From contig CALMJS010000019.1 of NCBI GenBank assembly GCA_937864535.1, positions 62,001-126,000 of the forward strand: 64,000 nucleotides of DNA. The letters run 5' to 3'. Origin of the DNA: an uncultured Paracoccaceae bacterium (GTDB lineage: Bacteria; Pseudomonadota; Alphaproteobacteria; Rhodobacterales; Rhodobacteraceae). Shown piece by piece: positions 1-27,992 of this stretch. Within the stretch, counting starts at the first letter, position 1, and each line of letters opens with the position of its first letter. A program made the translations under genes and the position numbers. The notes below the pieces were generated by a model that was given only the letters and a program-made list of their open reading frames with translations, searched no databases and had not been told where the DNA came from.

Positions 1-651
1 GGCGCGGGAATGCACCTGATGGCCCGCCTCGCGCAGGGCGTCGTTGAATCCCGCCTCGCGGTCGATCTGGGTCGAGGCGCCTTCGAAGCCGGCCAGATGG
101 GCGATCCGTTTGGGGTTGCCCTTTAGCAGGATATTCGCCGCCATCCGCCCGCCCTGATAATTGTCGCTGGTCACGGCGCGCAGGCGGTCGCCGGGCTGGT
201 CACGGTTGAACAGCATCACGGGAATGCCGTGGTCGCGGCACCGTTCCGCCAGAACCGAGGACATCGAGACCGACACCATGATGATGCCGTCGACCTGATA
301 GCCGACGATTTCCTGAATGACCGGTTCCACGTCGCCGATGGTGTTCGACGCCATGAACAGCAGGACGTGATAGCCGTTTTCCTGTAGCGCGATGGACAGC
401 TTTTCCACCGCCTCGGGGTAGAACTGGTTTTCGAAATAGTAGACCACCAGCGCGATGATCCGGCTCTTGCCGGTGATCATCGCACGGGCCAGAACATTGG
501 GCCGATAGCCAAGCTCTTCGGCCGCCACGCGGATTTTGTCGGCCATTTTTTTCGACACCGACGCGCCGGGGGTAAAGTAGCGCGATACGGCGGATTGGCT
601 GACCCCCGCGAGGCGGGCAACGTCGACAGATGTAACCGGCTTACTATTCAC
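1..651 (-). CDS. LacI-family transcriptional regulator (3' end outside window)
   Basis: The N-terminal helix-turn-helix is clear: from a GTG start the protein reads through VDVARLAGVSQSAVSRYF, then a hinge-type segment ELGYRPN, and continues into a periplasmic-binding-like effector domain that runs off the left edge of the window (217 codons visible). LacI regulators are usually repressors released by a sugar or related small ligand. It is the last visible gene of the leftward operon that begins with the SnoaL-like gene and includes the ABC importer, 57 bp after the ATPase gene, so local autoregulation is likely. It is the most obvious candidate to bind the TTTGCATA-type palindromes at 6.3-6.4 kb and 13.6-13.7 kb, but that is inference. 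The GTG start is chosen because the HTH begins only a few residues later. Confidence 0.9.
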   Translation of the reverse strand, partial: MNSKPVTSVDVARLAGVSQSAVSRYFTPGASVSKKMADKIRVAAEELGYRPNVLARAMITGKSRIIALVVYYFENQFYPEAVEKLSIALQENGYHVLLFMASNTIGDVEPVIQEIVGYQVDGIIMVSVSMSSVLAERCRDHGIPVMLFNRDQPGDRLRAVTSDNYQGGRMAANILLKGNPKRIAHLAGFEGASTQIDREAGFNDALREAGHQVHSRA

Positions 652-708: not shown

Positions 709-1761
709 TTACGGCTCGACGCGCTGTCCTGTCACAGCATCGAACAGATGGCAGGCCGCAACAGGAACCGTTGCCTGAATGCGGGACCCGATGTCGGCGC
801 GGAAATCCTTGGCCGCCTTGAGGTTGACCAGACCGCCGCCCACCGACACCGCCGCCATCGACGCATCGCCCAAGAGTTCCAGCGCGTAGACCTCGGCGTT
901 GATGTCGCCGCCGGTGTCGGTGAGGGTGACATCCTCGGCGCGAAAGCCCAGCGTGACCTTGCCTGACAGATCGGTGCGCAGGCCCGCCACGCGCAGATTT
1001 TTGGTCTCGAACACGCCATTCGCGATCGTCCCCTCCACGAGGTTCATGGCGGGCGAGCCGATGAACGAGGCGACAAAGGTATTGGCGGGGCGGTCGTAAA
1101 TCTCGGTCGGGGTGGCGACCTGCTGGATCACACCGGCATTCATCACCACGACACGGTCGGCCAATGTCATCGCCTCGATCTGGTCGTGGGTGACATAGAT
1201 GGTCGTGGTCTTGAGCCGATATTGCAGGTTCTTAATCTCGGCGCGGGTGGACACGCGCAGTTTCGCGTCAAGGTTCGACAGCGGTTCGTCCATCAGGAAC
1301 ACAGTGGGTTCGCGCACGATCGCCCGGGCCAGCGCGACGCGCTGGCGCTGACCGCCAGAGAGCGCGGCCGGACGCCGGTCCAGCAGGCCCGTCAGGTCCA
1401 CCATTTCGGCGGCACGGCGCACACGGGCGTCATGTTCGGCCTTGGGAACCTTGCGCACCTTGAGCGGAAAGCGGATGTTTTCGTAGACCGTCAGATTGGG
1501 ATAGAGGCCGTAGCTCTGGAACACCATGGCGATGTCGCGGTCCTTGGGCTCTAGCTTGTTGACCACGCGCCCGCCGATGATGATTTCGCCGTCGCTGATC
1601 TGCTCCAGACCGGCGATCATCCGCATCATCGTCGATTTGCCACAGCCCGACGGCCCCAAGAGGACAAGGAATTCGCGGTCCGCGATTGTCAGGTCAAAGT
1701 TGTCGACGCCGACAACCGGCCCCCAGCGTTTGGATACGTTGTTGAGTTGGATTTCGGCCAT
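709..1761 (-). CDS. Sugar-type ABC importer ATP-binding protein (MalK/UgpC family)
   Basis: This 350-residue ATPase energises the importer encoded just upstream. Walker A GPSGCGKST lies near residues 36-44, the ABC signature LSGGQRQRVALARA near 135-148, and Walker B VFLMDEPLSNLDAKLR follows; the C-terminal third is the TOBE-type regulatory domain typical of MalK/UgpC proteins. Length is normal for the family. It starts 3 bp after the stop of the permease gene, so the genes are co-transcribed. The substrate cannot be read from the ATPase, since MalK-like subunits are often shared between importers. The LacI-family gene follows downstream on the same strand. Confidence 0.95.
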   Translation of the reverse strand: MAEIQLNNVSKRWGPVVGVDNFDLTIADREFLVLLGPSGCGKSTMMRMIAGLEQISDGEIIIGGRVVNKLEPKDRDIAMVFQSYGLYPNLTVYENIRFPLKVRKVPKAEHDARVRRAAEMVDLTGLLDRRPAALSGGQRQRVALARAIVREPTVFLMDEPLSNLDAKLRVSTRAEIKNLQYRLKTTTIYVTHDQIEAMTLADRVVVMNAGVIQQVATPTEIYDRPANTFVASFIGSPAMNLVEGTIANGVFETKNLRVAGLRTDLSGKVTLGFRAEDVTLTDTGGDINAEVYALELLGDASMAAVSVGGGLVNLKAAKDFRADIGSRIQATVPVAACHLFDAVTGQRVEP

Positions 1762-1764: not shown

Positions 1765-2649
1765 TTACCCTTTGACGGCGCCTGCGGTCAGGCCGCTGAC
1801 GATCTGGCGTTGAAAGAACATCACGAGGATGAAGAGCGGCACCGTGGCCGAGACGACGGCGGCAACGGCATACATGATGGTGCCTTCGGTCTGGATGGTG
1901 CCCATAAAGGAATTGATTTTCGGGATCATGGTCTGGTTGTCCTGATTGAGCAGCATCGCCGTGACGGCAAAGTCGTTGTAGGCCAGCAGGAAGCTGAACA
2001 ACCCCGTGGTAATCACGCCCGGCCACATGACAGGCATGATCGCCAGCCGGAACGCCTGAAACCGCGAACAGCCGTCAACCATGGCGCTCTCGTCCAGGTC
2101 CTTGGGAATCGATTCAAAGAAGCTGTGCAGCATCCAGATGGTAAAGGGCTGGTTGATCGCGACCAGAACGATGATGGCGGTCGGCAGGTAGCCCCAGATG
2201 TTCAGTTCAAAGAACGGCAGCAGATAGCCGGACACCAGCGTGATATGCGGCATGGCGCGGAACACCAGCGCCGCGATCAGGATCCAGAACGTATAGCGCC
2301 GGGACGACCGCGACAGGGCATAGCCGCCCAGCGTGCCAAACACGAGGCTAATCGTGGTCACGCACAGGGTGACAATCGCGGTGTTCACCACGGCATGGCC
2401 AAATCCGCGTTCGATCCATGCGCCAGCATAGCCCGCGCCGGTCAGGGAACCGCCGGTCTGGCGGATCGTGGCGGGGCCGGTGATCGCGTTCCAGAAACTT
2501 TCGCGGCTAAAGAAATCCGCCTGCACCTTGAAAGAGCCCCAGACGGTCCAGAAAAACGGGAATGCCGCGAGGATGAGCCATAGCCCCAAGAGGACTGCGG
2601 TCGAGAGGACAACGGCGCGGCTGCGGGGGAGAGAGGGTTCAGTCTGCAT
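1765..2649 (-). CDS. ABC importer permease (MalG-type)
   Basis: Inner-membrane permease of 294 residues with six predicted hydrophobic segments. The first is near residues 15-35, and the cytoplasmic EAA loop appears as DLDESAMVDGCSRFQAF before the last segments, the hallmark of CUT1 sugar-type permeases. Its ATG shares one base with the stop of the other permease gene, which implies translational coupling and equimolar synthesis of the two halves. The periplasmic loop after the first membrane segment is longer than in E. coli MalG. Substrate is unknown; the operon context suggests the same ligand that is handled by the SnoaL-like protein and perhaps the amidase/HisD cluster. Confidence 0.93.
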   Translation of the reverse strand: MQTEPSLPRSRAVVLSTAVLLGLWLILAAFPFFWTVWGSFKVQADFFSRESFWNAITGPATIRQTGGSLTGAGYAGAWIERGFGHAVVNTAIVTLCVTTISLVFGTLGGYALSRSSRRYTFWILIAALVFRAMPHITLVSGYLLPFFELNIWGYLPTAIIVLVAINQPFTIWMLHSFFESIPKDLDESAMVDGCSRFQAFRLAIMPVMWPGVITTGLFSFLLAYNDFAVTAMLLNQDNQTMIPKINSFMGTIQTEGTIMYAVAAVVSATVPLFILVMFFQRQIVSGLTAGAVKG

Positions 2650-3680
2650 CAGCGGGCCTTACGGTTAAAGTCGCGCCAGGTGCGCACAAGGACGGGCATC
2701 AGGAGGATGATCACGCCGATGGTGGTCAGGACCGAGGTCGCCGCGGCAGAGCCGAACAACTGGTCCACTTGCCCGTTCAGATCGCTAAAGATCGAATAGG
2801 ACAGCGAGGTCGCATGCGCCGAAGAGCTAAAGCCGACAATCGGTTCGAACACGCGGAAATTGTCCATCAGCAGGATCAACCCGACAAAGGTCGCCAGCGG
2901 TTTAAGATGCGGCACGACGACATAGCGCACCCGTTCGAACCGGCTGGCGCCGTCGATCATCGCACTCTCCAGCGTGTCCTGCGGCAAGGTCTGAAGCCCG
3001 GCATAGAACACGACAAAGCAGAACGGCGCCATGTGCCATGAGCCGTAGATGATCAGCATCAGCCATGTCAGCACCGGAGAGGCCTTGAGCGACAGATCGG
3101 GGTTGCCGCTGAGGTATTGCAGCGCGGTGCCGATGATGCCGTCGGTATTGATCATCCAGTAGAGGATCAGCGACCCGATCAGCGGCGTGACCACATAGGG
3201 CAGCAGCGACAGGAAAATCACCGGACCCTTGAACAGGCGGGGCAGGGTATTGACCCCCAGAGCCACCAGAAACCCAAAGAAAATCGCCAGCGGCGTCACG
3301 GTAAAGGTGTAGACCAGCGTGAACGACAGCGCCTTGTAAAACGGCAGGTTATAGATGCGGCTGACGATATCGCCCAGCCCGTCATTGTCGGCAAAGATCT
3401 CGGCCAGTTCCGCCGTCGCCAGATGCGCGCGGTTGAGATAGGTGCCCAGCCCGTTGAATTTGCCCAAGGGCGCCTCGGACTTGAGCGCGGCGGTGGCGGC
3501 GACGTTGACGCGGGTTTCCTCGGTGCAGCCAAAGGGCGTACAGCTCTTGACGACCTCCAGAACCCGGTCGTGTTCCACAAACAGCGATTGGACCAGCACC
3601 GACCCGATGGGCAGCGCGATGAACAGCAGCATCAAGAGCGCGCTGGGAAAGACAAAGACGAAAAAATCGCGGTGTCGCAT
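2649..3680 (-). CDS. ABC importer permease (MalF-type)
   Basis: Inner-membrane permease. I choose the ATG at 3680 (MRHRDFFVFVFPSALL), because the extra 12 upstream codons are not hydrophobic and the first membrane helix then starts at the expected place; the product is 343 residues. A long periplasmic loop after the first helix carries two cysteines (CTPFGC) that could form a disulfide. The EAA loop reads DTLESAMIDGASRFERV. It forms the heterodimeric channel with the MalG-type subunit, with which it overlaps by one base, and follows the binding-protein gene by about 66 bp. Confidence 0.93.
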   Translation of the reverse strand: MRHRDFFVFVFPSALLMLLFIALPIGSVLVQSLFVEHDRVLEVVKSCTPFGCTEETRVNVAATAALKSEAPLGKFNGLGTYLNRAHLATAELAEIFADNDGLGDIVSRIYNLPFYKALSFTLVYTFTVTPLAIFFGFLVALGVNTLPRLFKGPVIFLSLLPYVVTPLIGSLILYWMINTDGIIGTALQYLSGNPDLSLKASPVLTWLMLIIYGSWHMAPFCFVVFYAGLQTLPQDTLESAMIDGASRFERVRYVVVPHLKPLATFVGLILLMDNFRVFEPIVGFSSSAHATSLSYSIFSDLNGQVDQLFGSAAATSVLTTIGVIILLMPVLVRTWRDFNRKAR

Positions 3681-3746
3681 GGTGGTGTCCCCGAAATAGA
3701 TGCGCCTCCGGAGCACGGGAGCCGGAGGCGCAGGGCTGCGACTGGA

Positions 3747-4982
3747 TCAGTTGATGAAACCAGCCTCGGTCGCGGCGGCGCGATAGGCGGCCTCGACATC
3801 GGTCAGGGCCTGACCGGCGTCTTCGGTGCCCTGCATAAAGTCGGCCAGTTCGTCACCCAGCGCGGTGTGCAGCAGACCCATGTACGGCGTCATCGGATAG
3901 GCCTTGGCGCCGGCTGCGGCTGTACCCAGAACACCGTTGGCACTGGCCGGAGCGGTGAAATCCTTCATCAGCCATGTCGCGCCGGTCGGGTTGGCCTGTG
4001 CGACCTCGGGGCGGATACCATGCACCATCGCCTGGAAAGAGGCGGCAGCGTCTTCGTCGCTGATGTTCTTGGCGATGGTAAAGCCGTCCCACCACAGCGC
4101 CGCAGCCGGTGTGGACCCGCCGCCGACGGTCGGGGCGGCGGCCAGAACGGTCGCTTCGCCGATCTGCGGCGCGGGGCCGTTCGGGTCGATATGGGCATTC
4201 ACCATCGACCCCCACTGGTTCATGATCGCGACCTGACCGGCGAGATACAGCGCCTTCATTTCGTCGGCGTCATAGCTCATGTATTCGGGCGACATAAAGC
4301 CGGTCATCGCCTTCATCATTTCCAGCGTTTTCAGGCCGGTTTCGTTGTTGATCGCCGGTTCCGCGCTACCGGGGGCAAAGAATTCGCCGCCCATGCCAAG
4401 GTACATGTTCACGAATTCCGCTGCGAGGTTCCACCCCGGCAGATCGGCGGCGGCCAGCGGATATTCCATGATCCCCTTGTCGCGGATCACCTGCGCGGCG
4501 GCCAGAACCTCTTCGTAGGAGGTGGGCTGTTCCAACCCGGCCTCTGCCAGCACGTCGCTGCGCATGAACAGGTGCTGCGCGTTGCCCATAAAGGCAATCG
4601 CCATCACCTTGCCGTCGATACGGATCAACTGGCTGTCCTGCAGCGTCGCGCCATATTGCGCGACCAGATCGTCCAGCGGACGGATCAGGTCTTCGTTCAA
4701 GAGCGGCACGATCGAGTTGTTCGCCACCACCGCGACCGAGTACTGCGCGGGGTTCACGCTGAGCGCGGGGACCTGCAGGCTCTTGTGTTCGGTGGTCATG
4801 TTCGCCTCGACCGCCACGCCGTCACCGGCGCAGGTCTTGGCCTCGTCCACGACGATCCCGAGCGCGTCGAAATCGTTGGCGAGGATACGCACGTTCCCCG
4901 CCGAAATCCCGCAGCCCGCATAGGCAGAGCTGGCAGCAAGGATCAGTGCCAGCGCGGTGGCTGACGTTTTCGAAAACTTCAT
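3747..4982 (-). CDS. ABC importer periplasmic substrate-binding protein
   Basis: Solute-binding protein of the extracellular family 1 type (sugar-like ligands), about 411 residues from the ATG at 4982. A Sec signal peptide is visible (MKFSKTSATALALILAASSAYA), with likely cleavage after AYA. The mature protein has the usual alternating alpha/beta lobes and a tryptophan-rich ligand region (ALWWDGF). An alternative ATG four codons upstream (4994) would only lengthen the n-region. It is 55 bp downstream of the SnoaL-like gene and directly precedes the permeases, which fits high-level expression near the promoter. The ligand cannot be predicted from sequence alone. Confidence 0.93.
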   Translation of the reverse strand: MKFSKTSATALALILAASSAYAGCGISAGNVRILANDFDALGIVVDEAKTCAGDGVAVEANMTTEHKSLQVPALSVNPAQYSVAVVANNSIVPLLNEDLIRPLDDLVAQYGATLQDSQLIRIDGKVMAIAFMGNAQHLFMRSDVLAEAGLEQPTSYEEVLAAAQVIRDKGIMEYPLAAADLPGWNLAAEFVNMYLGMGGEFFAPGSAEPAINNETGLKTLEMMKAMTGFMSPEYMSYDADEMKALYLAGQVAIMNQWGSMVNAHIDPNGPAPQIGEATVLAAAPTVGGGSTPAAALWWDGFTIAKNISDEDAAASFQAMVHGIRPEVAQANPTGATWLMKDFTAPASANGVLGTAAAGAKAYPMTPYMGLLHTALGDELADFMQGTEDAGQALTDVEAAYRAAATEAGFIN

Positions 4983-5037
4983 AGGTCTCTCCATTGGTGA
5001 AAGTGCCTGCTTGCCGCAGGTCTTTTTTAGCTATTTT

Positions 5038-6222
5038 TCAGGTGTCTGCTACGTCGCTGAACGAAGATTTGTCGGCCATTTGCGCCAGTTTGATCTGCAC
5101 CAGCAGCGACAGTTCATCGTAGACGGTCCAGTCATCGACGATTTTCCCGTTCTTGTAGTGATAATGGGTGATACCCATCAGTTTGACATGTTTGCCGGTC
5201 GGCGCGCCGAGGCTCTCGAGGATGCCATAGCCAAGATGGTGGCCCTCCAGAATCCAGCGCACGGCGACCTTGACCCCGCCTTCGTTGCAGGGGGTCGAAC
5301 AGATGTGCTGCGGGGCAAAGACCGCATCGGGGAAACTGCCGATCAGCCCCAGCATCTGATGGGTGACCGAGGCGGTGCCATACAGTTCCTTCATCAGCGG
5401 GCCGTGGTACATGGCGGTCGGCGCATAGACATCGCGGATACGGCCGAACATCTTGCGGTTCAGGACGTCGTGCAGCCACGACAGGGTTTCGCGCTCGATA
5501 TCATTATGCGCAAGGCTCAGGTCCGGGGTGTCGGTCGGCGGGTATTGACCCAGCATCAGGCCGACCTCGCCGATATCCAGCTGCTTGAACCCCTGCGACA
5601 GGCGCGCGGCGGCGATTTTCTCGGCATAGGCGTCCACGTCCAGACCCAGCTGCAACAGGATCGCCATCTGGTCCGAGACCACCCATTCGCGGTAGATTTT
5701 ATTGCGGTGGATCATACAGTCCGCCACGGTGCGCGACACAAAGGGGCGGCCATTCGCCGGGCCATAATGGCCGTTTTGCGTGTAGCGGCCCGATCCGGTC
5801 ACGAGGTGCGAGGTGTAAAACCCGTCCTTGTCATTGCCGTTCCAGATCACTTGCGTGGCATTGCCGCGCCGTTCGGGCAGCGACACGAGGCGCTGAATGG
5901 TGTCACGCACGACATCTTCGCGGTTATAGATCGTGCTGGTCGGGAGGTAGAGCACGACGTTATGCGTGTAATGCGTGTAGATCAGGCCAATGTCGCGCTC
6001 GTCCCAGATTTTGTGGGTGCAGCGGATGATGTAATCGACGATATCGGAATAGCAGGGATCAAAGCCGTCCATCCCCTGCACGGGCGCACGGTTTTCCGGC
6101 ACCAGTTCGGTAAAGTCCGACCGCTCGACATGCATCACCGCGCCATGATGGGGTGCGTCGTTGCGGGGGGTCGCGGCCTTGGCGCCTTTGGCGATGATAC
6201 TGGTTTCGTCCGAAGCGGCCAT
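5038..6222 (-). CDS. SnoaL-like/NTF2-fold protein with two tandem domains
   Basis: A 394-residue cytoplasmic protein without signal peptide. Residues roughly 50-190 and 240-385 each look like an NTF2/SnoaL cone domain: both begin with a helix followed by a strand of the type YAPTAMYHGP or YTHNVVLYLP and end in strands such as VVDDWTVYDE. SnoaL-fold proteins include polyketide cyclases, ester cyclases and many uncharacterised isomerase- or dehydratase-like proteins. ATG 6222 is preferred over the GTG at 6228 because the AAAGGA Shine-Dalgarno then has normal spacing. It is the first gene of the ABC-importer operon and its promoter region carries two copies of the TTTGCATA palindrome, so it probably acts on the imported compound. 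The reaction is unknown. Confidence 0.75.
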   Translation of the reverse strand: MAASDETSIIAKGAKAATPRNDAPHHGAVMHVERSDFTELVPENRAPVQGMDGFDPCYSDIVDYIIRCTHKIWDERDIGLIYTHYTHNVVLYLPTSTIYNREDVVRDTIQRLVSLPERRGNATQVIWNGNDKDGFYTSHLVTGSGRYTQNGHYGPANGRPFVSRTVADCMIHRNKIYREWVVSDQMAILLQLGLDVDAYAEKIAAARLSQGFKQLDIGEVGLMLGQYPPTDTPDLSLAHNDIERETLSWLHDVLNRKMFGRIRDVYAPTAMYHGPLMKELYGTASVTHQMLGLIGSFPDAVFAPQHICSTPCNEGGVKVAVRWILEGHHLGYGILESLGAPTGKHVKLMGITHYHYKNGKIVDDWTVYDELSLLVQIKLAQMADKSSFSDVADT

Positions 6223-6306
6223 GAACACGATCCTTTATCTGTCTCAACGCAAACTGCATACGCTTGCAATTCGGATATTGTTGTACTCTGCGCTTTCGCA
6301 CAAGTT

Positions 6307-6330
6307 ATTTTTGCATACTTATGCAAAAAT
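6307..6330. promoter_or_regulatory. 24-bp perfect palindromic operator, copy 1
   Basis: Arms of 11 bp (ATTTTTGCATA and its exact complement TATGCAAAAAT) flank a 2-bp centre CT. It lies 85 bp upstream of the SnoaL-like start and 85 bp upstream of the AtzG-like start, so it could serve both directions. The same core recurs at 6385, 13640 and 13684. A dimeric regulator is expected; the LacI-family protein at the end of the operon is the nearest candidate. Confidence 0.75.
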
Positions 6331-6384
6331 TGTTACAATGGATTGAAAGTGCTTTATTTTGTTGGCATGCAGTGGCTCACTCAA

Positions 6385-6402
6385 TTTGCATAAGTATTCA
6401 AA
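6385..6402. promoter_or_regulatory. Palindromic operator, copy 2 (one mismatch)
   Basis: TTTGCATA, centre AG, TATTCAAA: the same core as the copy at 6307 with one mismatch in the right arm. It ends 12 bp before the AtzG-like ATG, overlapping where the ribosome-binding site and transcription start would be, a position that suits repression of the amidase genes. Confidence 0.65.
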
Positions 6403-6414
6403 AATGGACCGGAT

Positions 6415-6561
6415 ATGACCAGGGACGACTATGACGCAGCGCTAAGATCGGCTGGAATCACGCTGGCCGAGGTCGAGATGGCCAAGGTCTGGCCCGCTGC
6501 AGAACGGTTACAGCGGCAGGCGCAATCGCTACGGCAAGCGGTGGGAGATGCCAGCAAATGA
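6415..6561 (+). CDS. AtzG-like small amidase partner subunit (48 aa)
   Basis: A short reading frame of 48 codons beginning MTRDDYDAALRSAGITL and ending at a TGA that overlaps the amidase ATG (ATGA). It is nearly all helix-forming: a short helix, the turn GITLAEVE and a longer amphipathic helix with alternating leucine/glutamine. That is the layout of the DUF4089/AtzG family, whose members are GatC-like partners that wrap and stabilise AtzE-type amidases. Coupling to the amidase and position support the call; the protein is shorter than typical AtzG (about 65-70 aa) and sequence identity could not be measured. The Shine-Dalgarno is weak (GGACCGG). Confidence 0.6.
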   Translation: MTRDDYDAALRSAGITLAEVEMAKVWPAAERLQRQAQSLRQAVGDASK

Positions 6562-7904
6562 CCGCGATCCTGGATATGCCGCTGCGCGAGATCGCCCGAC
6601 GACTGGCAGAGGGATCGGTCACTGCCGCCGATCTGAGAGAGGCGACCTACGCCCGGATCGCCGCACGCGACGGGACGCTGCGGTCGGTGGTGCATCTGCC
6701 CGATGCCGACCGCATGACAGTGCCGCAGGACGGACCATTCGCGGGCATTCCCTTTGGCGTCAAGGATATCATCGACGTGGCGCAGATGCCGACGCGCTGT
6801 GGATCCTTCGCCCATCCGGCACAGGAGCGGTCCGATGCGCAGGCTGTTGCGCTACTCCGGCAGGCAGGGCTGGTCCCCTTGGCCAAGCTCGCGACCTATG
6901 AATACGCGCTGACCGGACCGGCATGGGACCAGCCGAACCCGCCTGCACGCAATCCGTGGAACCCCGAACACATCACTGGCGGCTCCTCCTCCGGTTCGGC
7001 GGCGGCGGTTGCGGGCGGGCTGTTCCGCTTTGCCCTTGGCACCGATACCGGCGGCTCTATCCGCTCGCCCGCGGCCTATTGCGGGATTGTCGGGCTGAAG
7101 CCGACAGCCGCGGCGGTGCCGGATGGGGGCTGTTTCCCGCTCTCGCAGAGCCTCGATGTGATTGGCCCGCTGGCCGCCTGTGTCGAGGACGCCGCCATCG
7201 TGATGGACCTGCTCTCGCCCGCCAGCGCCGCCACCGCCGATATCGGTCGGGGGATTGCCGGGCTGTCCGTCGGCTATGCGCGGTCGTGGTTTGCCAGCGA
7301 CCCGAAATGCGATCCGGCGGTGGTGGTGGCGATGGATGACGCTGCCGCGACGCTGTCGCGTCTGGGGGCAAAAATCGTCCTGATCGACCTGCCGGAGTAT
7401 CAACCGCTCGAGGATGCTGGCACGGTGATCTTGCAGGCCGAGGCTTGGGCCAATCACCTCGGCGGGCTGCGTGATCGGTATGACCGCTACGGCGTCGATG
7501 CGCGGCGCAATCTGGTGACGGGCGCGATCCTGACAGAGGCGGATGTTCTGGCCGCGCGGCAGATCGGGCGCGACTTTCGCCAGCAGATCGACGGGATACT
7601 GGGCCGGATGTCTGCGATCCTCACGCCGACGACGTTGGGACCTGCGCCCGCGTTTGCCGAATTTACCGATGGTCCGGTCTGGACGGCAATGCGCACGCTG
7701 CCGTTCAACCTGTCAGGGCATCCGGCGCTGTCTGTGCCCTGCGGATTTGCGGCGAACGGTCTGCCGCTGGGGATGCAGCTGATCGGGCGATATGGCGACG
7801 AACGCATGCTGTGCCGGATCGCCCATACCTTTGAACAGGCGACGGATTTTTCGGCCCGGCCCGCAATCGGGGCCGAGCCGGTCAGTCTGGAGGATCAGGC
7901 CTGA
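6558..7904 (+). CDS. Amidase signature family hydrolase (AtzE/GatA-like)
   Basis: This 448-residue enzyme carries the full Ser-cisSer-Lys triad of the amidase signature family: Lys69 in FGVKD, Ser144 in GGSSSGSAAA and nucleophile Ser168 in TDTGGSIRSP, with the family spacing of 75 and 24 residues. It would hydrolyse a C-N amide, carbamoyl or related bond in the cytoplasm. Coupling by ATGA to the small AtzG-like gene suggests an AtzEG-like complex rather than GatCAB transamidase, since no GatB is present. Its end overlaps by 10 bp the convergent HisD-like gene. Operators upstream link it to the ABC importer and the HisD operon. The natural substrate is unknown. Confidence 0.9.
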   Translation: MTAILDMPLREIARRLAEGSVTAADLREATYARIAARDGTLRSVVHLPDADRMTVPQDGPFAGIPFGVKDIIDVAQMPTRCGSFAHPAQERSDAQAVALLRQAGLVPLAKLATYEYALTGPAWDQPNPPARNPWNPEHITGGSSSGSAAAVAGGLFRFALGTDTGGSIRSPAAYCGIVGLKPTAAAVPDGGCFPLSQSLDVIGPLAACVEDAAIVMDLLSPASAATADIGRGIAGLSVGYARSWFASDPKCDPAVVVAMDDAAATLSRLGAKIVLIDLPEYQPLEDAGTVILQAEAWANHLGGLRDRYDRYGVDARRNLVTGAILTEADVLAARQIGRDFRQQIDGILGRMSAILTPTTLGPAPAFAEFTDGPVWTAMRTLPFNLSGHPALSVPCGFAANGLPLGMQLIGRYGDERMLCRIAHTFEQATDFSARPAIGAEPVSLEDQA

Positions 7905-9178
7905 AGGCGATCCAGTCGCAGCTGGGCGGCGCGACGGTGGCCTTCCAGCCCTTCGGAGGCAGACTGACGGGTGGCGGGCGGTGCGACCTGGCGCACACCG
8001 TCCTCTTCCATCCATTGATGGGTCACGGTCTTGATGTAGGTGCCGACCCACAGACCGCCGGTATAGCGCCCCGCCCCCATTGTGGGCAGCGTGTGGTTCG
8101 TGCCGCAACATTTGTCGGAATAGACGACGCTGGCATTGGTCCCGATGAACAGCGAGCCGTAGTGCCGCAGTTTACGGGCCAGTGCCTTGGCATCCTCGGT
8201 ATGCACTTGCAGGTGTTCGGCGGCAACGATGTCGGAATAGGCGATCATCGTCGCCTCATCCGGACACAGGGCGATTTCGCCATAATCGCGCCACGCCTGA
8301 CCGGCGGTCGCGGCGGTCGAGAGGTCCAAGAGCTGGCGGTCCACCTCGGCCAGCACCGCGCGCGCCAGATCGGCATCGGTGGTGATCAGGCCGACGCGGG
8401 TGCGGGTGTCGTGTTCCGCCTGCGCCAGCAGGTCCGTCGCGATCATCTTGGCGTCGCCGGTATGATCGGCGAGGATAAAAATCTCGGACGGGCCAGCCAG
8501 TTGGTCGATACCAACGGGACCAAAGATCTGGCGCTTGGCCTCGTTCACAAAGGCATTGCCGGGGCCGACGATTTTATCCACGGCGGGGACGGTTTCGGTC
8601 CCCAGCGCCATCGCCGCAATCGCCTGTGCGCCGCCGATCCGGAAAATCCGGTCAGCGCCCGACAGGTGACAGCCGGCAATCATCGCCTCGTGGGCATTCG
8701 GCGGCAGGCAGGCGATTACCTCGGTGCAGCCTGCGACCTTGGCGGGGACAATGGTCATGATCGGGGCCGAGAGGAGGGGATAGCGTCCGCCCGGCACATA
8801 GCAGCCGACCCGTTCGAGCGGGATATTGCGGTGCCCTAGATGCACGCCGGGGCGGATTTCGATCTCCAGATCCGACATGGTGCCCAGTTGCGCCTGCGCA
8901 AAGGCGCGGACATTGGCAATGGCAAATTCGGTATCGGCGCGGGTCTGCGGGTCCAGACGCGCCAGCGCGGCCTCGCGGTCGGCGGCAGACACCTCGAAAC
9001 TGTCCAGTTCCGCCTTGTCAAAGCGGGCGGAATAGTCCCGCACGGCGGCGTCGCCTTCGGCTTTGACGCGGGCGAGGACCTCGGCCACCAGCGTCTCGAC
9101 CGGGGCGTTATCGGCGATGGCATCGCGGGCCGGGGGTTTCACAAAGGTAACAGTGGCGGGGATAGGAAGTCGGGTCAT
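7895..9178 (-). CDS. HisD-family NAD-dependent dehydrogenase (catabolic paralogue 1)
   Basis: A 427-residue histidinol-dehydrogenase-family protein. Visible family motifs are [46 protein letters not shown] (Gln/His metal ligand region), [11 protein letters not shown] (catalytic Glu-His) and GTNHTLPT. I choose ATG 9178 because it lies 7 bp after the RraA-like stop; an ATG 21 codons further up would overlap that gene. It ends the leftward operon that opens with a second HisD-like gene. No other his gene is nearby and it sits among catabolic genes, so histidine biosynthesis is unlikely; HisD-fold enzymes such as sulfopropanediol dehydrogenase oxidise other alcohols to acids. Substrate unknown. 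Confidence 0.85.
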
Positions 9179-9185
9179 GATGTCC

Positions 9186-9887
9186 TCAGGTGCGGGCCGC
9201 CTCGAACGCGGCCCATGCCGTTTCGAATGTGGCAAAGTCAAAGTCAGGTTTGCGGGCGGCCGACAGAACGATGTCCTCGGTCGCGATCAGTTTGGCGATA
9301 GCGGCCCCGATCCCGTCAAGATAATCGGCGGGGATCACCACCGCGCCATGGCGGTCGGCATGGAGCCAGTCGTCGGGCTGGACGGTCAGGCCGAACACCT
9401 GAACCGGACAGGCGATCTGTTTGACGTGGACAAACCCGTGCGAGGGGCCGATCTGTCCGGCAATCACCGGAAAGCCGGGTTCCATATCGCCCAGATCGCG
9501 CATCACCCCATTGGTCAGCGCCCCGGTCAGACCAAAGCCCTTGTGAACAGCGGTATTGATGCCGCCCCAATAGGCACCGATGGCGGCGGGGCCGTCGATA
9601 TCCTCGACCACGGCGATACGGGGGCCGGTGCCGGTCGCCATATAGCGGTAATAGTCCATGCGGCGGGCCCTGATCACCTCGGCAGGTTCGGTCGGCCGGG
9701 CGATGGCCGAAATTTTTGCTGTCCGCGCCTGCCCGACGAGGATGCCCGCCGGATCGCTGATCAGGACGGTGCCGCGGGTAAAGCGGTCAAAGCCGCGCCG
9801 CCCCTCTAGGACCTCAATCGCGTTGCAGACCGTCGGCGTATCGACGCGGCGCAGCAGATCCAGCGTTTCATTCGTTAGTCCAGCCAT
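9186..9887 (-). CDS. RraA-family protein (aldolase/decarboxylase-like)
   Basis: A 233-residue protein of the RraA/HMG-aldolase family. The characteristic core GALTNGVMRDLGDM and the late HADRHGAVVIP segment are present, including the Arg-Asp pair that in HMG/CHA aldolases and oxaloacetate decarboxylases binds the carboxylate and divalent metal. ATG 9887 is preferred: it gives the family-typical beginning LDLLRRVDTPTVCNAIE and overlaps the hydrolase stop by 13 bp. The frame is open further upstream, but that part is antisense-like GC-rich noise. In this operon it probably cleaves or decarboxylates a keto-acid made by the dehydrogenases; regulation of RNase E is not expected of this branch. Confidence 0.85.
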   Translation of the reverse strand: MAGLTNETLDLLRRVDTPTVCNAIEVLEGRRGFDRFTRGTVLISDPAGILVGQARTAKISAIARPTEPAEVIRARRMDYYRYMATGTGPRIAVVEDIDGPAAIGAYWGGINTAVHKGFGLTGALTNGVMRDLGDMEPGFPVIAGQIGPSHGFVHVKQIACPVQVFGLTVQPDDWLHADRHGAVVIPADYLDGIGAAIAKLIATEDIVLSAARKPDFDFATFETAWAAFEAART

Positions 9888-10555
9888 CTGCGTAGTCCCT
9901 CTGTCGTTTGCTGCGCTGCTTCCAGCGTGGGGAGATGTCCAATGTCCGCGAGGGTGACGCGAGTCGCCTGCGGCAGCAGGCGATGCATCAACTCGTGCCG
10001 TTCGGGCGGGCAGAGCCTGTCGTGATCCCCGTGCAGGATCAGCGCCGGACAGCGCACCCCGGCCAGTGTCGCGGTCTGGTCGGGCCGATCCCGAAGCGCC
10101 CGCGATTGCCGCGCGAACACCGCGCTGCCAAGAGACAGCGCCATGTCGCGGCACAGGGTTTGCGCCGCGCTATCGGGCCGTTGGAAATAGCGCGGGATAA
10201 ACACCTCGTCCATCAACCCGGCCAGATCGGTTTCGGCGCGGGCGATCTGCGCGGCGCGGGCATCGCGGACCGATGGCGCCTCGGCCAGCGGGTTGGTGGC
10301 GATGAGGGCGATCCGCGCGACCCTCTCAGGCGCGATGCGCAGAATCTCCATCGCGACGATGCCCCCCATCGACAGCCCCGCAAGGGCAAACCGGGGCGGC
10401 GCATCGGCCAGAACCGAGAGCGCCAGTCCGGTCATGTCGTCCGCGCCAGAGAGGTCGGCGCAAACGATGGTGCGGCCCGCTGACAATGCGGCGATCTGCG
10501 GCGCGAACAGGCGCGCGTCGCACATCATCCCCGGCAGCAGGACCAGCGGGATCAC
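9875..10555 (-). CDS. Alpha/beta-fold hydrolase
   Basis: A 226-residue single-domain hydrolase with a nucleophile elbow GLSMGG (Ser near residue 82), a late Asp in ILHGDHDRLCP and a terminal His in DIGHLPTLE, forming the classical triad. The oxyanion-type start LLPGMMCDARLF is also visible. It lies between the cupin gene (1 bp gap) and the RraA-like gene (13 bp overlap), so it is part of the same catabolic operon. It could cleave an ester, lactone or C-C bond of a pathway intermediate; the sequence does not discriminate. Confidence 0.85.
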   Translation of the reverse strand: MIPLVLLPGMMCDARLFAPQIAALSAGRTIVCADLSGADDMTGLALSVLADAPPRFALAGLSMGGIVAMEILRIAPERVARIALIATNPLAEAPSVRDARAAQIARAETDLAGLMDEVFIPRYFQRPDSAAQTLCRDMALSLGSAVFARQSRALRDRPDQTATLAGVRCPALILHGDHDRLCPPERHELMHRLLPQATRVTLADIGHLPTLEAAQQTTEGLRRWLD

Positions 10556-10556
10556 C

Positions 10557-11522
10557 TCAGCTCCTCCAGGTCGGGCCAGCGGCGTCGTCGGTGTCGCGCA
10601 CGCGGTAGAGGCTCGCCTCGCCGGTCATCGACGGAACCAGAGTATAGCCAAGGTTCGGCGGCACGGCGCAGGTATCGCCCGGCGCCAGCACGAGGCTGCC
10701 CCCGTCCCAGGTCAGACGCCAATGCCCGCGCATCACCATCAGCACATCGTTTTTGGCCGACATGATCTGGTCGGTCGTGGCAGAGCGGTGGTTGATCAAC
10801 TCGACCTCGAACCCGGGGCGGTCGCGCAGCATCCCGTGTTCGCCGATCACCTTGGCCGGGTGTTTGTCGGCCAGCGCCATCAGGTCCCAATAGCGGGCGA
10901 CATAGCCGGGGATCACCTCGGCGATGCCGGGTTCAGGGAAGGTCTTAAGCTCGTCCTCGGTCAAGAGCGGCATCGGCGACAGGCCTTCGGGCAGGGTCTG
11001 GCCCTTTTTGCTGTCGTAGAGTTTGCCATTCTCGCCAAGGATCAGGCCGTGTTCGCGCGCGTCCTCGATCACCTGCGGCGCCCAGATGACACCGCCGCCG
11101 GCATCGTCGCCGCCAAGGATCGCCATGATCATCCCGTAATCGGTGCCGATGTTTTCAAAGCCGCGGAAAATTCCGGTGGGAATGTTGAAAATGTCGCCTT
11201 CTTCCAGAACGACCTCGCCCGCGGTGCCCCAGCGCCCCCAGAAAAACCGCCAGCGGCCCTTGAGCACAAAGAACACCTCGGCGGTGCGGTGCGAATGCAG
11301 CGAGTTGCGGCATTTCGGCGGTTGCCCTGCCGCGCCGATATTGAACCCCGGCGTGTCGCGGATATGGACGTGCTGGTCAGGGCTCTCGGACACGCCGCCG
11401 CCGATGATGGTAAAGTTCTCTTTCTGGTTCGAACCGGGCGTATGCGCGTCGATGAACGCGGTTTTGCACGGGACCAGTTCGCCATAGCGCACCACGCGGG
11501 CACGCATCTCTTGGGGGGTCAT
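10557..11522 (-). CDS. Double-cupin domain protein (gentisate-dioxygenase-like fold)
   Basis: A 321-residue bicupin. The N-terminal barrel has the motif SLHSHRTAEVFFVLKGRWRFFWG followed by GDIFNIPTGIFRGFENIG, giving His-x-His, Glu and a later position where the metal-binding His is replaced by aromatic residues. The C-terminal barrel (NDVLMVMRGHWRLTWD, then APGDTCAVPPN) lacks obvious histidine ligands. Thus only the N-terminal cupin may bind metal, and partly. Bicupins of this size include ring-cleaving dioxygenases and non-catalytic binding proteins. It is the third gene of the HisD operon, 19 bp after the SDR gene. Function unassigned. Confidence 0.75.
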   Translation of the reverse strand: MTPQEMRARVVRYGELVPCKTAFIDAHTPGSNQKENFTIIGGGVSESPDQHVHIRDTPGFNIGAAGQPPKCRNSLHSHRTAEVFFVLKGRWRFFWGRWGTAGEVVLEEGDIFNIPTGIFRGFENIGTDYGMIMAILGGDDAGGGVIWAPQVIEDAREHGLILGENGKLYDSKKGQTLPEGLSPMPLLTEDELKTFPEPGIAEVIPGYVARYWDLMALADKHPAKVIGEHGMLRDRPGFEVELINHRSATTDQIMSAKNDVLMVMRGHWRLTWDGGSLVLAPGDTCAVPPNLGYTLVPSMTGEASLYRVRDTDDAAGPTWRS

Positions 11523-11541
11523 TGCTGTTCCTTTCGGGGTG

Positions 11542-12300
11542 TCATGCTGCGGTCCAGCCGCCGTCGATCAACAGGGACGTTCCCGTCACCATTGCGGCGG
11601 CGTCCGAGGCCAGAAATACGGTTGCGCCCATCAGATCCTCGACCTCGGCGACGCGATCGAGGGCGATGTTGGACAAAATCCAGTCCCGTTTGGCGGGATC
11701 GGCAAAGGTCGGTTCGGTCAGCGGCGTGCGGACAAAGGTCGGGCAGATCGTATTGATCCGGATGCCGTGCCGGCCCCATTCCAGCGCCATCGCCTTGCCC
11801 ATGCCTTCGAGGGCATGTTTCGTCCCGCAATAGACCGCCCGGTCGGGGCCGCCGACATGGCCCATCTGGCTGGAGATATGGAGGATCGACCCGCGTTTTT
11901 TGGCGGCGATCATCGATCGCGCGGCGAGGGAGGACAGGAAATACGCCGCCTCGAAATTCAGGGCGACGACATCGCGGAAATCGGCGGGGGTGGTGGTCAG
12001 CGCGGGACTGTGCCGCGCCATGCCTGCGGCATTGACCACGATGTCATAGGGGTCCGCGAACAGGTCTGTCACAAATGCGGCGTCGGTGATGTCACCTGCC
12101 ACCGCCCGCGCCGCGAGGCCCGCCGCCGCCAGATCGCGCACCAGCCGGTCCAGCGGCTCAGTGCGGCGCGCCACGCAGGTCACCGCCGCCCCCGCCTGTG
12201 CGAGGGCGACCGCGCAGCCCATGCCGATCCCGGAGGATGCCCCGGTGACCAGCGCGCTGCGCCCGTCCAGACGGAACGACGGCGTGCGGGGCAGGGTCAT
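11542..12300 (-). CDS. Short-chain dehydrogenase/reductase
   Basis: A 252-residue classical SDR. The cofactor motif [10 protein letters not shown] lies near residues 18-27, the structural NAAG motif is present (NAAGMA), and the catalytic Ser and YxxxK appear in ILHISS and [11 protein letters not shown]. The ATG at 12300 overlaps the stop of the HisD-like gene as ATGA, so translation is coupled. It would oxidise or reduce a hydroxyl/carbonyl using NAD(P). A HisD/HpsN-like dehydrogenase followed by an SDR recalls the hpsN-hpsO pairing of dihydroxypropanesulfonate catabolism, but no sulfonate-specific gene is visible here. Confidence 0.9.
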
Positions 12301-13619
12301 TTGAGCCGCACCGGAGCCGCCGCGCCATAGGCCACGTTGATGCCGCCATAGCGCCGGACGCGCTGGTTGCACTGTTCTGCATGGCCGACAAAGCCCTCCA
12401 GCAGGCACAGGCGCGACCCGTAGGCACCGATCTCGGCGGCGGCCTCATCGGTGGTGATCCGTTGATAGCTGTGGGTTTTCAGGAACTTGCCGACCCAAAG
12501 CCCGCCGGTATAGCGCCCCGCCTTTTTGGTGGGCAGGGTGTGGTTGGTGCCGATGACCTTGTCCCCGTTGGCGACATTCGTGCGCGGACCAAGGAACAGC
12601 GCCCCGTAGCAGGTCATGTTGTCCAGAAACCAGTCGTCGCGGTCAGTCATCACCTGCACATGTTCCGAGGCGATGTCATCGGCGACCTGCAACATTTCGT
12701 CATAGGTGTCGCACAGGATCACCTCGCCATAGTCGCGCCAGCTGGCGGCTGCGGTTTCCGCCGTCGGCAGGATCGCCAAGAGGGCCTCGATCCGGTCCAG
12801 CGTCTGCTCTGCCAGCCTGCGGGAATTGGTCAGCAGAACCGCGGGCGAATTGTAGCCGTGTTCGGCCTGTCCCAGCAGGTCCGTCGCGCAGAGGTCGGCA
12901 TCGACCGTTTCATCCGCGATCACCATGGTTTCGGTCGGTCCGGCGAACAGGTCGATCCCGACGCGGCCAAAGAGCTGGCGTTTCGCCTCGGCGACATAGG
13001 CGTTGCCCGGACCGACCAGCATATGCACCGGAGCGATGGTTTCGGTGCCGATGGCCATCGCGCCAATCGCCTGAATACCGCCCAGCACATAGATTTCGTC
13101 CGCCCCGCCCAGATGCATCGCGGCGATCACAGCGGCGTTCGGGCTACCCTTGAACGGCGGAGTGCAGCCGATGATCCGCGGAACACCGGCCACCTTGGCG
13201 GTAGCGATGGACATATGCGCGGAGGCCACCATCGGGAATTTGCCGCCCGGCACATAGCAGCCAACGGATTGGACCGGGATATTCTTGTGACCAAGGATGA
13301 CACCGGGGCGCGTTTCGACCTCGATATCGGTCATAGAGGCGCGCTGCGCGCGGGCGAAATTGGTGACCTGCTCTTGGGCAAAGCGGATGTCGGCCAGATC
13401 CTGTTCGGGAACCGTGGCGATCAGCGCCGCGATTTCGGCATCCGTCAGGCGAAAGGCAGCGGGGGAATAGCCGTCAAAGGTCGCTGACATCTCGCGCAGG
13501 GCCGCGTCGCCGCGCTCTGCGATGTCCGTCAGCGCGGTTTCGACGACGGCGCGGATCTTGGCGTCGTCGGCTTTGCGGTCCGCTTCGGGCTTTCCGCGTT
13601 TGAGGTAGGTAATCGCCAT
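12297..13619 (-). CDS. HisD-family dehydrogenase, HpsN-like (catabolic paralogue 2)
   Basis: A 440-residue HisD-family dehydrogenase beginning [13 protein letters not shown]. Motifs [63 protein letters not shown] and [19 protein letters not shown] are all present. From memory this branch resembles sulfopropanediol 3-dehydrogenase (HpsN) and relatives more than biosynthetic HisD; I could not compare sequences. ATG 13619 is chosen over an upstream in-frame codon that lies within an operator. It is the first gene of the six-gene operon, and two TTTGCATA palindromes lie 20-86 bp upstream. The reaction is probably two-step NAD-dependent oxidation of a primary alcohol to a carboxylate. Confidence 0.85.
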
Positions 13620-13639
13620 GGCCTGCACTTCCGACTCGT

Positions 13640-13655
13640 TTGCATATGTATGCAA
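13640..13655. promoter_or_regulatory. Palindromic operator, copy 3
   Basis: TTGCATA, centre TG, TATGCAA: perfect 7-bp arms, the same core as the copies at 6307 and 6385. It lies 20 bp upstream of the HpsN-like start codon, where a bound protein would block transcription or initiation. Confidence 0.7.
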
Positions 13656-13683
13656 TACGGTGCCGCGAGCGGTGTTGCAAGGA

Positions 13684-13705
13684 TTTTTGCATAAGTATGC
13701 AAAAA
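13684..13705. promoter_or_regulatory. 22-bp perfect palindromic operator, copy 4
   Basis: TTTTTGCATA, centre AG, TATGCAAAAA: perfect 10-bp arms, almost identical to copy 1 at 6307. The centre-to-centre distance to copy 3 is 47 bp, close to four and a half helical turns. Confidence 0.75.
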
Positions 13706-13997
13706 CCGCAGACCCACCCGGGGCGGGGTCAGAGGCAGGCGCGTTCAGCAGGTGGTTCGCCTGACCATTTCAACCAGAACCGCGTATTTGGACCAGTCTG
13801 GATATGGCTATCCGGCAGGAAATAGACTTTGGTATCGAAACTTTATCCATTTCCCAGATTGAACCCGAGATTTCAAAACCGCTCAATATCCCGATGAGAG
13901 ACGAGAGTTCCCCCGACCTTGGGTATCTCTATCGCGATACGATTGGAGGTGCTCTGGCGGCGGCAATCACATACCGGGCATATGGAGATTTTCCGAA

Positions 13998-21150: not shown

Positions 21151-21414
21151 CTAGCGGGCGCAGATCGCGAACAACCCGGCGCGGGAGGAAATCCCCAGTT
21201 TAGCGTAGGCGCGTTTGCGGTAGGTGACGACGCTGGACGCGGCCACGCCCAAATCGGCGGCGATGGCTTCTGATTTATGGCCGGACAGGATGCCCAGACA
21301 GACCGCCTGTTCCCTCTCGCTCAGCACGCTCAGAGGGGCGGGCAGGGTGCTATCGCGGGCGCGATCGTAGTGCATCAACGCCAGCCGCCCCGCCAACCGC
21401 GCAAGGTCGGGATC
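21151..21414 (-). pseudogene. LuxR-type HTH fragment (C-terminal only)
   Basis: The last 87 codons form a complete LuxR/GerE DNA-binding domain: LSEREQAVCLGILSGHKSEA, IAADLGVAASSVVTYRKRAY, AKLGISSRAGLFAICAR. Upstream of about 21414 the same frame is open but is only the antisense of a flavin monooxygenase remnant, so the sensor half has been lost. The breakpoint coincides with the truncated start of that monooxygenase, indicating one deletion that removed both 5' ends of a divergent pair. Confidence 0.8.
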
Positions 21415-22427
21415 GCCTCGGTTCTCCTCGAGGCGGGATCGACCTTTGGCGATGGCAGTCGGGCGATCTGTGTGGCGCGGCAGAGCTTTCACATCCTCGA
21501 ACGGATCGGGGCCGTCGCGCCGTTCCTGAACAAGGCGCTGGGATGGACCACCGGACGCAGTTTCTATCGCGGGCATCAGATCCTCGAATTCGAGATGCCC
21601 GATAGTCCGCGCGACAAATACCGCCCGATGTACAACATCCAGCAGCAGTTCATCGAACAGTACCTCTGGGATGCCATCGCCGCAGAGCCACTGATCGAAA
21701 CCCGCTGGCAAAGCGAGGTGATCGGGCTGTCCGATACCCCGGACGGCGTCCTGCTGACCGTCCGCGATCCCGCTGGCAGCTACGATCTGCCCGCCGACTG
21801 GGTGCTGGCCGCCGATGGCGCGCGCAGTCCGATCCGCAAACTGCGCGGTCTGCGGCTCAAGGGTGAGAACTATGAGGGCCGCTATGTCATCGCCGATGTG
21901 CAGATGGCCCATGACTATCCCACCATCCGGCGGGCGCTGTTCGACCCCGCCTGCCGTCCCGGCGGAACGGTTCTGGTGCATAAACAGCCCGACGACATCT
22001 GGCGCATCGACTATCAGTTGCGCGACGACGAACGGACCGAGGACGCGCTGGACGAGGCAGAGGTGCGCCGCTCTGTCGCCGCCGTACTGGCCGAAATTGG
22101 CCATCACGGCGATTGGGCGCTGGAATGGTGGAGCGTCTATTCCGCCAATACGCTGGCGCTGGACGACTATCGTGACGGGCGGGTGTTTTTCATCGGGGAC
22201 AGCGCCCATATCGTGCCGATTTTCGGCGTGCGCGGATTGAACAACGGTCTGGCCGACGCGCAGAATATCGCGTGGAAATTGTCGCGGGTGATTGCCGGCC
22301 ATGCGCCAGAGGGCCTGCTGGACAGCTATTCGCCGGAACGGCGCGGTTCATGACGCCGCCCACGGCGGGCTGGCTGCTGATGCGGGACGCGGCGCTGAAC
22401 CTCGCGCTGTCGCATCCCTTTGCGGGG
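21412..22427 (+). pseudogene. Flavin monooxygenase remnant, N-terminally truncated and frameshifted
   Basis: Coding similarity begins at IASVLLEAG, the end of the first Rossmann strand-helix-strand, so the GxGxxG FAD loop is missing. It continues through GDGSRAICVARQSF, DWVLAADGARSPIRKLRG, LVHKQPDDIWRIDYQL and FFIGDSAHIVPIFGVRGLNNG, all group A aromatic hydroxylase features. Near 22345 (SPERR) about 20 codons are lost and the frame shifts; ARFMTPPTAGWLLMRDA to LSHPFAG is the tail. It closely resembles the intact monooxygenase at 31906-33531 in motif sequence and gene order, suggesting a paralogue. Confidence 0.85.
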
Positions 22428-22586
22428 CAGCTGGATCAGATCGCACCCGGGAACCGCGAGCTGTTTCTGGCCAAACTCGCGCTCTTGCTGGGGCGAGAGG
22501 TCGGCAACATCGACATCGCCCTGCGCGCCATTGCCTCGGCCGCCGAGTATTTGCATCGTCAGGGAGACGATTTCAGCTTGACCTGA
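22428..22586 (+). pseudogene. DUF2783-like remnant
   Basis: Fused in frame to the monooxygenase tail are about 50 codons, GNRELFLAKLALLLGREVGNIDIALRAIASAAEYL, whose pattern matches the helix of the DUF2783 protein at 31703-31909 ([26 protein letters not shown]). The expected N-terminal part of that family is missing. The match is by eye and short. Confidence 0.5.
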
Positions 22587-22596
22587 GGGGGGGCAT

Positions 22597-24854: not shown

Positions 24855-24855
24855 C

Positions 24856-27603: not shown

Positions 27604-27653
27604 CTGCCAACCGGAGGCCGGCCCCGGCTGGCCTCTTTCCTGCAGGAGCCATC

Positions 27654-27977: not shown

Positions 27978-27992
27978 GACAGGAGAGGGGGC

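Follow-up and report, generated by a model that had tools for sequence, protein, structure and literature searches.

A candidate local LacI-family regulon over a catabolic gene cluster of an uncultured Paracoccaceae bacterium

The closest described counterparts of the system considered here are the local LacI regulons of the RegPrecise collection (PMC4052901), in which the regulator lies beside its targets, the operators are even palindromes, autoregulation is probable and a sugar-type importer is present. The same traits are found in a gene cluster at the left end of a 64,000-nucleotide stretch of DNA (the window) from an uncultured Paracoccaceae bacterium (assembly GCA_937864535.1, contig CALMJS010000019.1, positions 62,001 to 126,000 of the forward strand), where palindromic sequences precede an importer operon, an amidase operon and an operon with two HisD-type dehydrogenases, HisD1 and HisD2. 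The locus differs from the RegPrecise regulons in that the word 'Histidinol' has 0 occurrences in the main text of that paper, and in that most operators of the window lack the central CG which the paper gives for 1173 of 1251 even-palindrome LacI regulators, and thus belong to what is the minority type there (49 regulators with different and 29 with degenerate centres).

Comparison of the locus with its relatives argues that the LacI-family protein whose gene lies at the window's left edge uses the palindromes as its operators, with the cluster as its local regulon; we put the probability of this reading at about 85%. The regulon would probably comprise 14 genes and be autoregulated. It is an ordinary kind of system, a predicted local LacI regulon serving a widespread catabolic pathway, and as such it is well supported by comparison. 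What began as a coincidence between two places of the window thereby becomes a defined regulon that has a single candidate regulator and a usable operator matrix, and some 90 loci of bacteria ranging from Alphaproteobacteria to Enterobacterales can be compared with it.

The pattern TTTGCATA-N2-TATGCAAA has exactly four matches in the window at up to three mismatches, while 100 dinucleotide-preserving shuffles of the window gave a mean of 0.03 and a maximum of 1. Two of the sites lie between the gene of a SnoaL-like protein and a small open reading frame (ORF), one at 6307..6330 (core 6310-6327, perfect 11-bp arms, CT centre) and one at 6385..6402 (AG centre, 1 mismatch), which stops 12 bp short of the small ORF. 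The other two, at 13639..13656 (1 mismatch, TG centre) and 13684..13705 (core 13686-13703, perfect 10-bp arms, AG centre), are both upstream of the HisD2 gene, since its likely start is the ATG at 13619. The positions and arms reported in a preliminary description of the same DNA are thus confirmed, its 13640-13655 falling within 13639-13656. Its remark that the palindrome was not noticed elsewhere in the window is right at this threshold but misses a fifth, weaker site at 6253..6270 (ACTGCATACGCTTGCAAT, CG centre), which also lies between the SnoaL gene and the small ORF. An operator matrix built on 200 gene-adjacent sites, all taken from 91 loci other than the window, gives the four sites 34.4, 34.4, 31.1 and 25.5 bits, the fifth site 19.7 bits and the next position of the window 11.3 bits. 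The fifth site sits at a place that is conserved in the alignment of relatives, and the spacing around it (75 and 57 bp) is like that of the third site in relatives such as locus L039 (78 and 56 bp). It matches a looser pattern, TTGCANNCGNNTGCAA, at 1 mismatch; by this pattern alone it would not stand out, because among the 15 matches in the genome at 1 mismatch (control 1) 4 are in the cluster region and 11 are elsewhere.

The bacterium's own genome (3,697,669 bases in 35 contigs) holds no matches to the original pattern at up to two mismatches other than the four palindromes of the window, and the reversed control pattern has 1. The genome-wide scan for unrelated sites that had been proposed therefore leaves 4 of 4 matches within the cluster. 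At three mismatches there are 5 more, scattered matches, a level close to that of the reversed control (3 in all).

The cluster consists of 14 genes in three transcription units. The first unit, on the minus strand, begins at 6222 with the SnoaL or 'ester cyclase' protein, which has two NTF2-like halves (5038..6222), and continues through a solute-binding protein of the SBP_bac_1 family (3747..4994), ABC importer permeases 2 (2649..3716) and 1 (1765..2649), the importer ATPase of the MalK/UgpC type (709..1761, annotated ugpC in relatives) and the LacI-family regulator, with gaps of at most 57 bp. The window contains the 5' part of lacI (1..651), which starts 57 bp after the ATPase gene on the same strand; the full gene, C19:61653-62651 in our numbering of the genome's contigs, extends beyond the left edge of the window and encodes 332 amino acids without stops. 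The 217-residue part matches PF00356 (45.6 bits) and PF13407 (74.3 bits), i.e., a helix-turn-helix and a periplasmic-binding-type domain. The plus-strand unit consists of the 48-codon small ORF (6415..6561) and an amidase gene (PF01425, 6558..7904) whose start at 6558 it overlaps. The second minus-strand unit comprises genes for HisD2 (12297..13619), a short-chain dehydrogenase/reductase (SDR, 11542..12300), a bicupin (10557..11522), an alpha/beta hydrolase (9875..10555), an RraA-like protein (9186..9887) and HisD1 (7895..9178), the latter ending tail to tail with the amidase gene. A single regulon of about 13 genes had been suggested, and comparison supports one local regulon; the number becomes 14 if LacI is counted.

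The proposed mechanism is that a LacI dimer would occupy the operators between the divergent SnoaL-importer-LacI and small-ORF/amidase operons, as well as those before the HisD2-SDR-bicupin-hydrolase-RraA-HisD1 operon, and would repress the operons as long as neither an imported compound nor a metabolite of it is bound to the periplasmic-binding-type domain. Autoregulation would be probable, given that lacI closes the importer operon.

The same motif was found near related clusters. A scan of a contig collection with the SnoaL protein gave 111 relatives, from which 80 loci were kept, mostly of Rhodobacterales, Devosia and other Hyphomicrobiales, and Enterobacterales, with a Halomonas metagenome-assembled genome among the rest. 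Together with 6 plasmid loci, 20 stretches from genomes of the same family (8 chosen on account of a SnoaL relative with only ~30% identity) and our own stretch, and with the duplicate L052 dropped, they make up 106 non-redundant loci (2.14 Mb). Martelella mediterranea DSM 17316 is among the strains in which the cluster is present. At up to three mismatches, 94 of these have at least one palindrome, 209 sites in all compared with 4 for the reversed pattern, and in 92 loci the sites are near gene starts. Their consensus is TTTGCATACGTATGCAAA, and pairs of sites 54-57 bp apart recur among the relatives. The predicted operator is thus common to related clusters in Alpha- and Gammaproteobacteria. 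In 19 whole genomes of the family that have a SnoaL orthologue, 25 sites were found in 12 genomes at up to two mismatches (control 2), and 15 of them share a contig with the SnoaL gene and are no more than about 20 kb away from it. The reverse approach, from motif to cluster, is based on 394 family genomes, of which 54 contain the palindrome at no more than one mismatch and 3 the reversed pattern; 21 of the 54 belong to the 75 SnoaL-positive genomes of the family. From 18 of the 54 genomes 18 places were picked by hand, paired or perfect sites being favoured; three of these genomes (G326, G158 and G304) were SnoaL-positive beforehand. In 17 of the 18 places an importer gene and/or HisD2 adjoins the palindrome, and HisD2 (74-82% identical) is present in 13, two others being cut by contig ends near the site.

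The candidacy of the LacI protein as regulator, raised in the preliminary description, is supported by its near-constant presence, by its nearly invariant recognition helix and by operators that are even palindromes, mostly CG-centred. Among the 83 loci that span 19 kb or more and encode a SnoaL protein of at least 55% identity, 80 have a LacI that shares 40% identity or more with any of five seed proteins, the stretches of L054, L090 and L132 being without it. Nearly all LacIs of the clusters have an identical recognition helix, AGVSQSAVSR; the exceptions are the second LacI of L116 (AGVSRSAVSR) and distant LacIs of L043, L090 and L122 (AGVSQSTVSR). A LacI of this group is also encoded within 10 of the 18 motif-selected stretches, in 10 out of 10 cases with the AGVSQSAVSR helix. 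In the bacterium's own genome the group is represented by one LacI, and the next best protein is 34% identical to the query used. A published study of the LacI recognition code ties arginine at position AA-20 to G at operator position NT-6 (PMC2978694), and the arginine at AA-20 of the cluster LacI and the G at NT-6 of its putative operator fit this rule.

Several observations weigh against a regulon defined in this way. No site was found in 12 of the 106 loci at up to three mismatches. In the whole genomes of relatives the SnoaL neighbourhood accounts for 15 of the 25 sites and the other 10 are elsewhere, which makes the short pattern less exclusive there than in the bacterium's own genome, and 7 of the 19 genomes have no site at up to two mismatches. 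Among the motif-selected places, L164 showed no cluster gene, and L165 gave just the importer ATPase in the tblastn search, plus an NTF2-like relative in another search. Some related clusters (e.g., L116, L117 and L038) have two LacI genes, so that the binder is not always certain. In the window itself, 4 of the 5 sites are without the central CG usual for LacI operators, and promoter scans returned a single weak candidate, at 6310-6339 (chance expectation 0.6), and nothing upstream of HisD2.

The lack of a central CG is a property of a clade. When the centres were counted in those 204 of the 209 sites that have a recognised gene start close by, with the remaining 5 dropped, 163 of the 165 sites outside the window's LacI clade were CG-centred and 2 were not. 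Within the clade, which consists of ten loci (the window, L036-L040, L045 and L116-L118), 28 of 39 sites are non-CG, and TA is present on both sides of the centre in 27 of these 28 sites and in 0 of the 11 CG-centred ones. Fisher's test gives p values of 7e-9 for the association of TA flanks with the centre within the clade and 3e-23 for the clade against the rest, both of which are too small because sites in orthologous promoters are not independent. In the tree of LacI proteins the ten loci group with moderate support, 93/60 with L045 included and 99/86 for the nine loci that have methionine at the hinge position described below. To judge from these counts, the window's LacI clade has exchanged a CG operator centre for a TA-NN-TA one with its recognition helix kept, and so represents a natural case of operator-centre change in the LacI family. 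The window LacI has methionine at the hinge lever in place of the usual intercalating leucine. This replacement was ruled out as the cause of the non-CG centres on two grounds: L045 and L042 combine leucine with non-CG sites, and L126, L127 and L140 combine methionine with CG sites. No single one of the DNA-binding residues, compared by eye, accounts for the switch, and the recognition-code study states that hinge and centre are both too conserved for mutual information to show how they are connected (PMC2978694). Hinge methionine occurs in several separate branches of the tree (L126, L127 and L138-L141).

The two classes of centre may be explained in another way, namely by two LacI paralogues that shared one ancestral operator. 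LacI-a would have acted on the SnoaL/amidase promoter and LacI-b on the HisD2 or bicupin genes; in the window's lineage LacI-b would have been lost and its HisD2 sites captured by LacI-a. There are indeed two LacIs in L038, L116 and L117, and in L037, L039 and L040 the listed sites of the SnoaL/amidase promoter are non-CG in 9 of 9 cases while those before the SDR, bicupin or HisD2 genes are CG in 7 of 8; the window's genome, with one LacI of the group, has non-CG sites at both places. Yet L116 has two LacIs and 4 of 4 non-CG sites, and L037, L039 and L040 show one LacI per stretch in spite of having both site classes. We regard this history as possible, though rather unlikely.

It is improbable that the palindrome is bound by some other regulator, e.g., of the GntR, IclR or MarR type, with LacI merely travelling with the cluster. 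Several regulator families use AT-rich palindromes, four sites of the window are without the LacI-typical centre, and behind the amidase gene of L119 and the HisD1 gene of L118 lie a GntR gene and a helix-turn-helix gene, respectively. Against this stand the presence of LacI in nearly all of the long loci, its being the sole regulator type that recurs inside the cluster in nine annotated regions, and the CG centre of almost every site outside the window's clade, which is the LacI pattern according to the RegPrecise data that we used (PMC4052901). The view of the palindromes as a dispersed repeat or a structural element (REP-like or a terminator stem) can be dismissed, for although inverted repeats with perfect 10-11-bp arms might fold into a stem, the sites of the bacterium's own genome (up to two mismatches) are confined to the cluster, those of relatives are near gene starts, and scans of the site regions gave no terminator-like match.

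The local LacI regulon would control a set of enzymes that is widespread as a set. In the 83 long loci HisD2 is present in 73, HisD1 in 72, the SDR in 64, the amidase in 58, a cupin in 55 and a hydrolase in 53. The RraA-like protein, a predicted class II aldolase/decarboxylase, is found in 33 of the 83 loci, an HpcH/HpaI aldolase in 21, and both are present in 1, an exclusion that is explained in part by lineage. As these are unrelated aldolase folds that substitute for each other, a retro-aldol or oxaloacetate-type decarboxylation step may be argued. For the amidase and its coupled small upstream ORF the comparison offered in the preliminary description is AtzE/AtzG, the 1-carboxybiuret hydrolase. 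The two systems share the coupling of an amidase to a tiny upstream ORF, and the small ORF is AtzG-like by size and position only. Unlike AtzE, the amidase remains far under both NCBIfam cut-offs (241.1 bits with a cut-off of 461, and 220.3 bits with a cut-off of 425.75), and 0 of 4 small ORFs match Pfam at a limit of E 10, although the search filters drop most weak matches; for these reasons the name is a weak one. The top NCBIfam models for the alpha/beta hydrolase are of the PcaD type, far under the cut-off. Predicted structures show a generic quercetinase/oxalate-decarboxylase bicupin fold for the bicupin (mean predicted local distance difference test score, pLDDT, 88.7) and a generic SnoaL cyclase fold for the SnoaL protein (mean pLDDT 75.3), and pointed to no specific function of either.

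The two HisD-type proteins belong to the fold of HisD and of HpsN, the 3-dehydrogenase of 2,3-dihydroxypropane-1-sulfonate (DHPS; PDB 8v35 and 8wwe). Like HisD they match PF00815 and score above the cut-off of TIGR00069, and they differ from it in lacking the HisD motif G-S-A-P-L. A third PF00815 protein, encoded outside the cluster on contig C8 of the same genome, scores higher for the HisD family. Histidine biosynthesis was rejected as the role of HisD1 and HisD2 on the grounds of this motif and this extra, better-scoring copy. A Gln-His pair, presumably, provides the Zn ligands of the HisD/HpsN fold. The catalytic Glu-His and the Zn-ligand residues, as given in the HpsN study (PMC11382572), are aligned and conserved in both proteins. 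The HpsN signature G-R-Y-A/S-H given there is absent from both: at its place HisD1 has GRYPL and HisD2 has GKFPM, which speaks against DHPS (sulfonate) catabolism as the pathway. That pathway comes to mind since both HisDs are nearest to HpsN in the PDB, HisD2 scoring 404 bits with HpsN (8v35) and 149-258 bits with HisD structures. The plasmid of locus L172 also carries, ~7-14 kb beyond the core cluster, another hisD, a taurine-type importer and a D-cysteine desulfhydrase, which we take to belong to the CuyA-type sulfo-lyase family. The sulfonate-type genes of L172 look like a separate cluster, however, and the family searches and annotated regions name a sulfo-lyase for none of the cluster genes, all of which makes DHPS catabolism very improbable. 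Pantothenate or pantoate catabolism (CH2OH to COOH, then decarboxylation) was also tried and rejected, as it leaves the cupin and SnoaL genes unexplained and the literature search gave no useful lead.

For the pathway governed by the putative LacI regulon we propose the following outline. The importer would take up a small polar compound, from which the amidase would remove an amide-linked (or vinylogous-amide) amine. Both HisD-type enzymes would oxidise a CH2OH group beside OH or NH2 to COOH; the SDR, cupin, hydrolase and SnoaL enzymes would process the carbon skeleton; and the RraA- or HpaI-type class II aldolase/decarboxylase would release a central 2-oxo acid. The identity of the compound would follow from the effector of LacI or from the ligand that the solute-binding protein takes.

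The boldest version, which we consider improbable, is that the regulon is a catabolic system for mycosporine-like amino acids (MAA) or gadusol-type cyclitols. It draws on the general chemistry of mycosporine and gadusol compounds. A protein like cobalamin-independent methionine synthase II (MetE-II-like, at least 40% identical to a seed from L170) was found in 21 of 127 loci, the seed included, of which 12 are SnoaL-orthologue loci, mainly of Devosia. Some carriers of the cluster or of its paralogue come from an alga culture (host Rhodosorus marinus), coral (Galaxea fascicularis), Arctic offshore water and leaves. Together with the enzyme set, these proteins and sources weakly suggest a methylated hydroxymethyl cyclitol such as mycosporine. 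On such a substrate the amidase would cleave the vinylogous amide, the HpsN-fold enzymes would oxidise the ring C(OH)-CH2OH to C(OH)-COOH, the MetE-II-like methyltransferase of relatives would remove the O-methyl group, the quercetinase-like bicupin would open the enediolone ring, and RraA (LigK-like) or the HpaI aldolase would split the tertiary-hydroxy 2-oxo acid, with LacI sensing this class of compounds. The absence of a MetE-II-like match from the bacterium's own genome weighs against the idea for this strain. The part of an MAA review consulted (PMC10384724) gives no account of bacterial catabolism of these compounds, and a literature search, with subscription papers and RegPrecise outside its scope, turned up nothing that resembled an account of the cluster or of MAA-catabolic genes.

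A paralogous core cluster with several SnoaL proteins is present in many Rhodobacteraceae (Ruegeria, Octadecabacter, Paracoccus plasmids; L170-L172 among others). It shares HisD2, SDR, LacI, bicupin, hydrolase, RraA and importer genes with the cluster of the window, as well as the same operator type in the motif-selected loci of this kind (the scan left out L170-L172). It differs in its extra SnoaL proteins and, in some cases, in having a MetE-II-like protein and an S-adenosylmethionine (SAM) methyltransferase. The 26 stretches searched gave no amidase match and one HisD1 match (40%, L141). In L170 four different SnoaL/NTF2-like proteins are encoded in one catabolic cluster (4222-15809), an unusual concentration of this fold that is also seen in L161 (12235-15199). 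The MetE-II-like genes of L170 (16963-18700) and L171 (16982-18103) are inside the paralogous LacI/HisD cluster, accompanied by the SAM methyltransferase gene in L170. The D-cysteine desulfhydrase, taurine-type ABC importer and hisD genes of L172, a Paracoccus alcaliphilus plasmid, lie together at 25434-32521 and may form a cysteate/DHPS-type cluster.

The sites of relatives that lie away from the SnoaL neighbourhood include G353:C5:11642, G018:C4:16670 and eight more places. On the left of the window, at 2308-13602 of L005 (own-genome contig C19), an inositol/cyclitol-catabolism-like cluster ends beside lacI; by eye and without a family search it contains several Gfo/Idh-type dehydrogenases, a thiamine pyrophosphate enzyme and xylose-isomerase-like proteins, and the operator matrix of the relatives found no strong site in it (best 8.1 bits). 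Divergent from HisD2, at 13998-16481 of the window, lies a gene whose large product, as judged by eye, begins like a zinc protease and contains many RTX-type repeats; it is not expected in the regulon. Farther to the right, at 21277-25500, pieces resembling FAD-dependent monooxygenases, a CobW-like and a short GntR-like ORF are found near one another and by eye seem fragmentary or rearranged.

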